Source: Hysterium pulicare CBS 123377
Lineage: Eukaryota; Ascomycota; Dothideomycetes; Hysteriales; Hysteriaceae
Direction of reading: 5' to 3'
Assembly (NCBI GenBank): GCA_000467715.1
Contig: AJFK01001067.1
Location: 1-28,927 of the forward strand
DNA length: 28,927 nt
In this document: positions 12,471-14,424 of the stretch, one piece after another
How positions within the stretch are numbered: the first letter of the stretch is position 1
Layout: each line of letters starts with the position of its first letter
The notes under the pieces: generated by a model
Databases searched by the model: none
What the model was told of the DNA's origin: nothing
The model's input: only the letters and a program-made list of their open reading frames with translations
Program-made: the position numbers and the translations under genes

Positions 12471-14424
12471 TCAGAAAGCCAAGATTCTTTGACCTCTAAC
12501 ATTCGCCTCAAGCTCAGCCACCGGTTTGAATTCTTTCAGAGGGCCATTTGGATTGAAGAACCCCACATTTGGAACTCGGGTCGAAGCAGGAAGTTCGGTC
12601 GCTCCCGCTGAGCTCGGGTGGCGTTCCAGCCAACTTTCTGAAGCAGGGCTCTTTGCCGCCTCAGACTTCTGGCCTCCTTTACCGACGTGCAGGATTCGTT
12701 CGAACATGTTCACAATGCGATGTGGTTTCAGTGGGGCATCCTCTTTTCCATCAATACCCGCCACCGAGCGCACGCCCACGAAGTCTCCAGCCACATTGGT
12801 CGGCTCCTCGTACATACTGAAGAACGGATATCCGTACTTGATATATGTTGCTGCACTGATGGGTGACTCTGGCGGACGGAATCCAGTGACGCTTCGGAAA
12901 TGCAGTGAGTTGAGGATCTGCACGTTGAAAGCGACGGTCTTCTCACTAGCCCATTCGTGCGTATCTTTGGTTTTATCGCGAACAATGGTTTGGTCGATAA
13001 GACCGCCAGCTGCTACAGCCATCTCGGCTTCCGATAAAGGAGGTCCGCTATATCCCCCTCTGAGACGGAGCACTAGATGCATCGTTGACTCCTATCATGA
13101 AATCTCAACAATGGTAGTCTATGGAAAGCCTACGGGTATAGTCACCTTCTGAATATTGTATTGTTCTAATGTGTTACAATCTACATCTTGTTAGGATATT
13201 GAGAATGCCTTATGAGGAGACCTCATACCTTGGAGCTGCTTGCCCTCGAAAATCAGCCTCTGCTGGTCGGATGGAATACCCTCCTTTATCTCAATCATGG
13301 TCTTGATGTTCTGTATCAAATCCGTGGAAGAAACGACTAGAGTAAAGGTTTTACCAGTGAGGGTCCTGATGAAGATTTGGTAAGGGGTATCGAATGACAA
13401 GTACACCGAAGAATCCTGTCAACAGATCAGCTTATTGTGACAGTAATTGAGCGGGCTTTGGGTTGTTACCTCAGTAATATGCAACTGCTCTAAGGACTTT
13501 TCTCGTTCGTTTCGATCTGCGCGAAAATAAGTGAGAAGAGACGATATGAGACTAAGATTAACGCTTACAGCTTGGAGTACCGACGGCAGACACATATTCG
13601 TTTCCCCACTCTCCGTCTTTTCGGTGCGTGAAACAGAGCGCGTAAGCTCGATTCTTAGGAAAAATTCCCTGCGACCGCAGCCTATCTTCCACATCTCCAA
13701 GTCGTTCATTCCATCTTACCTTGACCGTCTCAACGCCATCAAAGTTCCCACCTCCTCTGTTGTCAACTTTCAGCCTAAAAGATAATTTGCGAATTGGTGT
13801 GACCTCGAACTGGATTCCCCCACTGACTTCTTCGCCCGTTATCTGAGCTTCAACAGAGTATCCTTTGCCCATAGGCATGGCAACGAACTGCCTCACTTTT
13901 CCCTCACCAGTCGCGATTCCGTCTATCCAAAGTTGATCCGGCACAACTACATAGTCTTGGATGGATTTTCCTTGCGCGAGGAACTGGCGTCGTCGAAGTT
14001 TCATCGCAGCCGTCTCGATGGCAGGCTCGCCAGAAACGGCGTTCACGCTACCGACATAGATTTTGATGGCGTAGGGCTTTGAGGATCGGAAGTTCATCCA
14101 CATGGCTTCGCGTTCTGAGAGTATAGCATCCTTGTCAGTCCGTTGCAGCATAACTTCGGATCAATCCAGTGGAGTTGAAACGGAATAGGTGAGGCACGTA
14201 CGATACATAGGGAGGAAAAGTCCTCCTTTCTGCGCCATTTTCACTGGAAGTTTGTCCGCATACTCCTTCACCTCGTAGAGCGGGAACTTTCCCAGAGATG
14301 GAGGCAAGGCTGAGCTACCCTTGTTGTCTGGAACCCTTACTGTTCTCTCGAAGGAGATTTGGAGATCGTCAAGTTGAATTCTGCCATTTTCAATGCTCTT
14401 TGATGGAGTCCAGGTCGAAGTCAT
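12471..14424 (-). CDS. Fungal protein with a ubiquitin domain embedded between two uncharacterised domains
   Basis: Six exons: 14424-14202, 14114-13569, 13516-13470, 13415-13229, 13180-13146 and 13091-12471 (1659 nt, 552 residues); introns are 48-87 bp. Residues 1-272 form an N-terminal region including [29 protein letters not shown] and [18 protein letters not shown]. Residues 284-359 are a ubiquitin fold, about 54 of 76 positions identical to ubiquitin by eye, starting [12 protein letters not shown] and ending [14 protein letters not shown] with the GG intact (Leu67 is Met). The Leu8/Ile44/Val70 patch and Lys 11, 27, 33, 48 and 63 equivalents are kept; Lys6 is Arg and Lys29 is Met. A 193-residue tail follows, with [19 protein letters not shown] and a KPVAELE block near the end. 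I recall related uncharacterised proteins in other ascomycetes. Function unknown; the GG followed directly by YSGPP could be a cleavage site for deubiquitinases. Confidence 0.88.

Follow-up and report, generated by a model that had tools for sequence, protein, structure and literature searches.

A diverged ubiquitin in the linker of a bacterial-type protein of Hysterium pulicare, a possible permanent in-cis ubiquitin mark

Ubiquitin is normally attached to other proteins post-translationally. What, then, would be the role of a ubiquitin that is encoded in the middle of another protein? This question is raised by a gene in the window, the whole 28,927-nucleotide stretch of Hysterium pulicare DNA that was analyzed. 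A first-pass annotation of this DNA described a protein of 552 residues that encloses a diverged ubiquitin with an intact GG tail, and proposed that cleavage after the GG would release the tail and leave the N-terminal region carrying a permanent C-terminal ubiquitin. The answer that we favor, with somewhat better than even confidence, is that a bacterial-derived and apparently soluble protein would carry the ubiquitin as a permanent in-cis mark, placed in the linker of one predicted fold.

Predicted splicing of the minus strand from 14424 to 12471 removes five GT-AG introns and joins six exons into an open frame of 552 residues. An alternative acceptor for intron 1 at 14154, which gives a shorter intron, is also open and yields 565 residues; the 552-residue form was preferred because it restores the motif PMYQREAMW, found in both paralogues in this genome and, almost intact, in bacterial relatives. 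The gene and its parts are laid out as follows.

12471 to 14424, minus strand: whole gene, six exons, 552 residues, a ubiquitin-"IMP" fusion (spliced translation; two paralogues).
14202 to 14424, minus strand: exon 1, from the ATG to a GT donor.
13569 to 14114, minus strand: exon 2, end of the N-terminal part and start of the putative degenerate ubiquitin-like stretch.
13470 to 13516, minus strand: exon 3, 47 nt, phase 1 at its start and phase 0 at its end, 15 residues.
13229 to 13415, minus strand: exon 4, end of the putative degenerate unit and first two thirds of ubiquitin.
13146 to 13180, minus strand: exon 5, 35 nt, phase 1 at its start and phase 0 at its end, 11 residues of ubiquitin.
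12471 to 13091, minus strand: exon 6, ubiquitin tail, C-terminal part and stop.
13795 to 14424, minus strand: N-terminal bacterial-type part, residues 1 to 181, with intron 1 inside (plasmid match and 101 relatives).
13383 to 13794, minus strand: residues 182 to 283, probable decayed tandem ubiquitin-like unit (intron phases and a short alignment).
13053 to 13382, minus strand: ubiquitin, residues 284 to 359, with an RLRGG end (55 of 76 identical; Pfam PF00240).
12474 to 13052, minus strand: residues 360 to 552, a 9-residue spacer, YSGPPLSEA, and then the C-terminal bacterial-type part from E369 (bacterial matches; mapping to residue 207 of the bacterial relative L045).

Beside this gene in the window, a possible catabolic cluster lies between 15055 and 25796, where frames read by eye resembled several short-chain dehydrogenases together with an FAD monooxygenase, an amino-acid permease and a fungal transcription factor.

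Residues 284 to 359 of the window protein matched Pfam ubiquitin with an E value of 7.4e-24 and a score of 83.7 bits against a cutoff of 25.4; the match is therefore not due to chance. Identity to ubiquitin amounted to 55 of 76 positions, where the first-pass annotation had counted about 54, and its reading of the residues was also borne out: the Ile44 patch, K48, K63 and RLRGG are retained, K6R and K29M are present, and the initiator methionine is replaced by tyrosine (M1Y). The flanks comprise an N-terminal region of 283 residues and a tail of 193 residues. This is not the layout of an N-terminal ubiquitin fusion precursor, as the unit begins with Y at residue 284.

Two further copies of the gene were found in the same genome, C561 (408 residues) and C4 (425 residues), each of which carries one ubiquitin placed as in the window copy. 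In the three copies, the first residue of the ubiquitin is Y, V and F, and the initiator methionine is thus absent from all of them. Generic ubiquitin is nearly invariant in sequence, whereas these units are identical to it at 55, 36 and 44 of 76 positions and retain 5, 2 and 2 of its seven lysines, K27 being the only lysine common to all three; the suggestion that the unit is no longer generic ubiquitin was well founded. Across the three paralogues of this one genome, on which the conservation counts rest, and canonical ubiquitin, 24 of 76 columns are invariant. These include all eight of L8, R42, I44, H68, V70, R72, G75 and G76, with a hypergeometric P value of 3.9e-5 that should be taken as a guide, as this set was one of seven tried and was picked on the basis of general ubiquitin biology. 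In the same comparison, the smaller sets gave 0.008 for the I44 patch and 0.03 for R72-G75-G76, and the F4 patch has been lost, with none of its four positions invariant. The first-pass annotation had considered that homologues might freely lose the GG or the hydrophobic patch; the outcome went the other way, with L8, I44, H68, V70, G75 and G76 invariant in the three copies. It had also proposed a check on the GG and the residue that follows. The GG is present in all three copies, but the next residue is not conserved (Y, G and Y), which argues against a specialized cut site. R74 is R, S and C, and its loss in two copies should weaken recognition by deubiquitinases. Taken together, these comparisons show that the three paralogues have kept the recognition face and the GG but differ in their lysines.

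Elsewhere in the genome, nine further ubiquitin-like stretches, which are mostly single exons aligned only in part, retain 0 to 5 of the eight residues; a tenth, L171, was left out of this count. Among the nine, L164 retains five of the eight, and L162, which we take to be Dsk2-like, retains four of the five that are aligned. L164 (G000 C171, about 92399 to 92611) is itself a diverged ubiquitin-like unit that ends in LPLRGG-M, followed by what is presumably an AN1-type zinc finger, in an N-terminal fusion layout. Integral ubiquitin-like proteins of the Rad23/Dsk2 type carry their ubiquitin-like domain at the N terminus and without a GG. The fungal unit is similar to these in being a nonconjugated ubiquitin-like domain with a kept hydrophobic patch but differs from them in being internal and GG bearing.

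To what kind of protein does the ubiquitin belong? Residues 1 to 283 and 360 to 552 matched no Pfam or NCBIfam family above cutoff. In tblastn searches against plasmids, the N piece matched six records and the C piece four, and both pieces matched the same place in four plasmid records, from Miltoncostaea, Kovacikia, Euzebya and Bradyrhizobium; the best match to the N part had 45.8% identity and an E value of 3e-44. Six-frame reading and alignment showed that the bacterial protein consists of the N part, a linker and the C part, 293 to 384 residues in all, without ubiquitin. A scan of prokaryote genomes confirmed at least 576 relatives, of which the best 80 were kept by likeness to the Miltoncostaea protein, giving an uneven sample; 21 relatives were found in viral contigs and 2 in phage records. 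Ubiquitin was detected in none of 107 proteins from plasmids, genomes (the best 80 of at least 576) and viral contigs (phmmer, E of ≤10), and no frame of those 107 loci, nor of 19 further viral loci, matched ubiquitin at an E of ≤0.01. Six of the 107 are without the N-terminal motif and were left out, giving 101 trimmed relatives, the genome members of which come from the best 80 of at least 576; the window N part is 33 to 52% identical to these by blastp and up to 57% identical in an alignment made with another aligner. These results show that fungal residues 1 to 181 and 369 to 552 correspond to the two parts of one bacterial and phage protein. The bacterial and jumbo-phage relatives (L029 to L034 and L041 to L141) share the N and C parts of the fungal proteins, and where the fungi carry ubiquitin they have a short linker that is disordered in the model.

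Several relatives have other notable surroundings. In a Chlorobiaceae metagenome-assembled genome (MAG) (L088), the relative runs in frame into a likely vWA domain (Pfam, below cutoff), and in a Spartobacteria MAG (L070), it runs in frame into repeats that look TPR-like by eye. On the Bradyrhizobium plasmid (L034, 5995 to 12462), annotation places the relative among genes for M12 metallopeptidase, caspase-family and trypsin-like peptidase proteins.

AlphaFold2 modeling of L045 with a 65-sequence alignment gave a mean pLDDT of 91.1 and a pTM of 0.88, with a single long disordered stretch at residues 186 to 204. Mapped onto L045, the insert of each of the three fungal copies falls between residues 167 and 207, within this linker region, which varies from 25 to 114 residues (median, 39) among the 65 aligned relatives. 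When the C part was modeled alone (64 of the 65 sequences), the pLDDT was 67.6 and the pTM 0.35, the two long strands vanished, and no strands were left. From these two predictions, of bacterial L045 and, as indirect evidence, of the C part alone, we infer that the N and C parts may build one structural unit in which ubiquitin would be a loop passenger in the disordered linker. Fold searches against the PDB gave no clear relative of the bacterial partner fold. In the single-unit copies C561 and C4, ubiquitin follows the N part after gaps of 3 and 6 residues, and the spacer between ubiquitin and the C part is 9, 11 and 9 residues in the window copy, C561 and C4 and is rich in G and P. Ubiquitin is thus tethered tightly to the N part, with more slack toward the C part.

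By its architecture, the window gene appears to be a member of the ubiquitin-IMP fusions published by Sibbald, Hopkins, Filloramo and Archibald (2019, BMC Genomics 20:38; PMC6332867), and this architecture has been known since 2019. The passages of that paper devoted to the fusions report them, beyond Bigelowiella, in 87 species, which include 63 of the 88 fungal species examined, with a patchy distribution across eukaryotes, polyubiquitin-IMP forms in Bigelowiella, and a partner that is called a bacterial integral membrane protein; in most fungi with the fusion, ubiquitin lies mid-protein, and the fungal copies form one clade. A literature search found the term ubiquitin-IMP in no other paper. 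With the fusions as described in those passages, the window gene shares a ubiquitin in frame with a partner that has bacterial relatives, the position of the ubiquitin mid-partner (in the window copy and both paralogues), and the single fungal clade, here three copies of one genome (100/100). It differs from that description in the probable decayed unit before ubiquitin, in a partner without membrane segments, and in an insertion point that falls, by mapping, in the disordered linker between two parts of one predicted fold. The two paralogues and the fungal distribution given in those passages of PMC6332867 sustain the first-pass suggestion of a conserved fungal architecture.

If the partner described in those passages of PMC6332867 is the same bacterial family, as the matching architecture and one phage relative annotated "putative membrane protein" would have it, the name "integral membrane protein" is probably an annotation error. 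The name is doubtful because hydropathy is below 1.6 everywhere and the L045 model is beta-rich, with helices that are only short. Against this threshold of 1.6 on the 19-residue Kyte-Doolittle mean, the best values were 1.38 for the 101 relatives and 1.46 for the three fungal copies, and no protein reached it.

An N-part tree was built from 99 bacterial, phage and plasmid proteins (L123 and L124, which are without RQF, were left out) and the 3 fungal copies, which are its sole eukaryotes. The fungal copies formed one branch (100/100) with a long stem of 1.01, within a weakly supported group (88/83) that contains some Myxococcota and Actinomycetota; the exact neighbor of the fungal branch, L121, is unsupported (95/23). 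These observations indicate that the host protein of the fungal fusion in all likelihood derives from bacteria.

The window copy contains about 100 extra residues before ubiquitin, residues 182 to 283, that are missing from both paralogues. By sequence alone, this region is not significantly ubiquitin-like, since 21 of 200 shuffles scored as high. A 16-residue stretch in its last part aligns with a 16-residue stretch of ubiquitin, and both aligned stretches have a phase 0 intron at the same point and a phase 1 intron before a short exon (47 and 35 nt). The same two intron places occur in C4, and nearly the same in C561, whereas introns are found at neither place in the polyubiquitin gene of this genome or in the genes that we take, from the names of their partners, to be UBI-L40-like and UBI-S31-like. 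UBI-L40, UBI-S31 and polyubiquitin resemble the window gene in that ubiquitin is followed in frame by another protein after the GG, but in these the ubiquitin comes first, has its initiator methionine, and is canonical, with other intron positions in this genome. Residues 182 to 283 are probably a second, decayed ubiquitin unit, a view that the intron phases support more than the sequence does. The simplest account would be that ubiquitin and its introns were duplicated internally and that the first copy then decayed. The first-pass annotation had noticed neither this probable unit nor that the host protein derives from bacteria.

How might such a protein work? If the reading that we favor is right, the fungal protein would have the ubiquitin mark built in as a permanent in-cis feature. 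Its readers would be ubiquitin-binding proteins or deubiquitinases, which would recognize the L8-I44-H68-V70 face, R42, R72 and the tail, without any attachment by E1, E2 and E3, and two of the three copies would offer no site for K48 chains. Deubiquitinases would probably be able to cut after G76, because a spacer of 9 to 11 G/P-rich residues lies between the GG and the C part. Since the N and C parts seem to be one fold, a cut at the GG would give a nicked complex or a destabilized protein rather than an independent free tail. The GG could also be kept merely as a hinge.

The protein might instead be a processing precursor, cut after the GG into an N-terminal protein that permanently bears ubiquitin at its C terminus and a tail that acts separately, as the first-pass annotation envisaged. 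Ubiquitin fusions are in general cleaved after G76, the RLRGG-Y of the window copy is a plausible substrate, and the retention of GG in every copy and the G/P-rich spacer behind it would suit such processing. However, the tail is a portion of the bacterial protein and shows no confident fold when modeled alone, the first residue after the GG varies, and R74 is lost in two copies. Cleavage after the GG is thus plausible, but release of the tail is doubtful given flanks that are parts of one bacterial protein and one predicted fold, and we regard the precursor as improbable.

We consider it no less improbable that the ubiquitin is a relic or passive spacer that drifts in a tolerant disordered linker, in which folding and a flexible glycine hinge alone would be conserved. 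The window copy and C561 are 43% identical in the ubiquitin and 76% identical in the N part. Over the three paralogue pairs, with dS saturated or nearly so, dN was 0.57, 0.45 and 0.52 for ubiquitin and 0.17, 0.32 and 0.28 for the N part; the dN of the C part was below that of ubiquitin in one pair (0.29) and slightly above it in two (0.56 and 0.56). The faster change of ubiquitin than of the N part would also fit relaxed constraint. The second, nearly unrecognizable unit that precedes the ubiquitin and the variable length of the linker in relatives (25 to 114 residues) are likewise consistent with drift. Against drift, surface contact residues are retained while several core positions change, and the ubiquitin is kept in three paralogues, with fusions of this kind reported in 63 of 88 fungal species (PMC6332867). 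Finally, that the ubiquitin exons come from another gene and were joined here in error is scarcely credible: the prediction does rest on splice signals, but frame and phases are continuous through the six exons, the order is the same in two paralogues, and no copy has an initiator methionine at ubiquitin residue 1.

A further observation concerns the bacterial and phage relatives. A small gene for an XRE-type helix-turn-helix (HTH) protein lies directly upstream of the family gene in 21 of 101 loci, at 2 to 99 bp in 20 of these and at 273 bp in one (for example, L127:7628-7999, L086:7522-7878 and L131:7589-7936); this number is at least 21, as two more plasmid copies have an annotated adjoining HTH gene that the profile did not match. 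Three of the HTH proteins were scanned and matched Pfam HTH_3. The HTH gene forms the largest neighbor cluster. Eight further clusters of 6 to 9 loci each, some of them also close, looked like lineage synteny or wrong-frame open reading frames and were set aside. A C-terminal tail of the type [VI]x[DENG]Gx[WF] (VRDGxW type) ends all 21 HTH proteins and 63 of the 101 family proteins; the family protein beside such an HTH bears it in 10 of the 21 cases, and neighboring open reading frames as a whole bear it in 22 of 1,404 cases, the 21 HTH included. The three fungal proteins end in F, without this motif. The tail shared by the HTH and family proteins suggests a common reader, and, as a guess, ubiquitin may have taken over the role of this tail.

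Relatives of the bacterial fold may also exist in giant viruses. Foldseek searches of predicted viral structures (BFVD) matched two proteins from Harvfovirus, 586 and 613 residues long (E values of 2.5e-21 and 3.2e-20), as well as one from Hyperionvirus named "Ubiquitin-like domain-containing protein" (E value of 1.1e-8 over 170 columns); the accessions of the Harvfovirus and Hyperionvirus matches are A0A3G5A0P2, A0A3G5A5W8 and A0A3G5A6D8. This possible link comes from Foldseek alone. When viral contigs were scanned with the ubiquitin-to-end piece of C561, none of six stretches was confirmed; a scan with the mixed alignment gave 21 loci (19 new identifiers) and no ubiquitin-fused relative; and a scan with ubiquitin gave nine loci, none with an N or C part. 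No frame of L121 to L160 matched ubiquitin. In contigs of the viral collection, L172, L176 to L178 and L180 show ubiquitin behind starts that look like signal peptides by eye, and in L180 a longer C-terminal region follows the ubiquitin; these ubiquitins may be bacterial and secreted.

One could propose, although we think it quite doubtful, that the fold has been repeatedly fitted with ubiquitin upon its entry into eukaryotes (fungi and algae), and perhaps in giant viruses, since its job needs a built-in recognition tag, the bacterial tag being the C-terminal VRDGxW shared with the adjacent XRE regulators. If this were true, the protein would represent a constitutive ubiquitin signal whose formation requires no E1, E2 or E3.

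On the reading that we prefer, that of a permanent in-cis mark on a bacterial-derived protein, a ubiquitin built into a loop would not be cleanly removable, and the bacterial origin and single predicted fold alter what cleavage would do. The "integral membrane protein" label on the fusions may be wrong and would then misdirect experiments. Beyond the description of 2019, the placement of ubiquitin within the protein and its possible role are now better defined, and the family may show, as a natural experiment, which surfaces of ubiquitin are important when it is not there to be conjugated.
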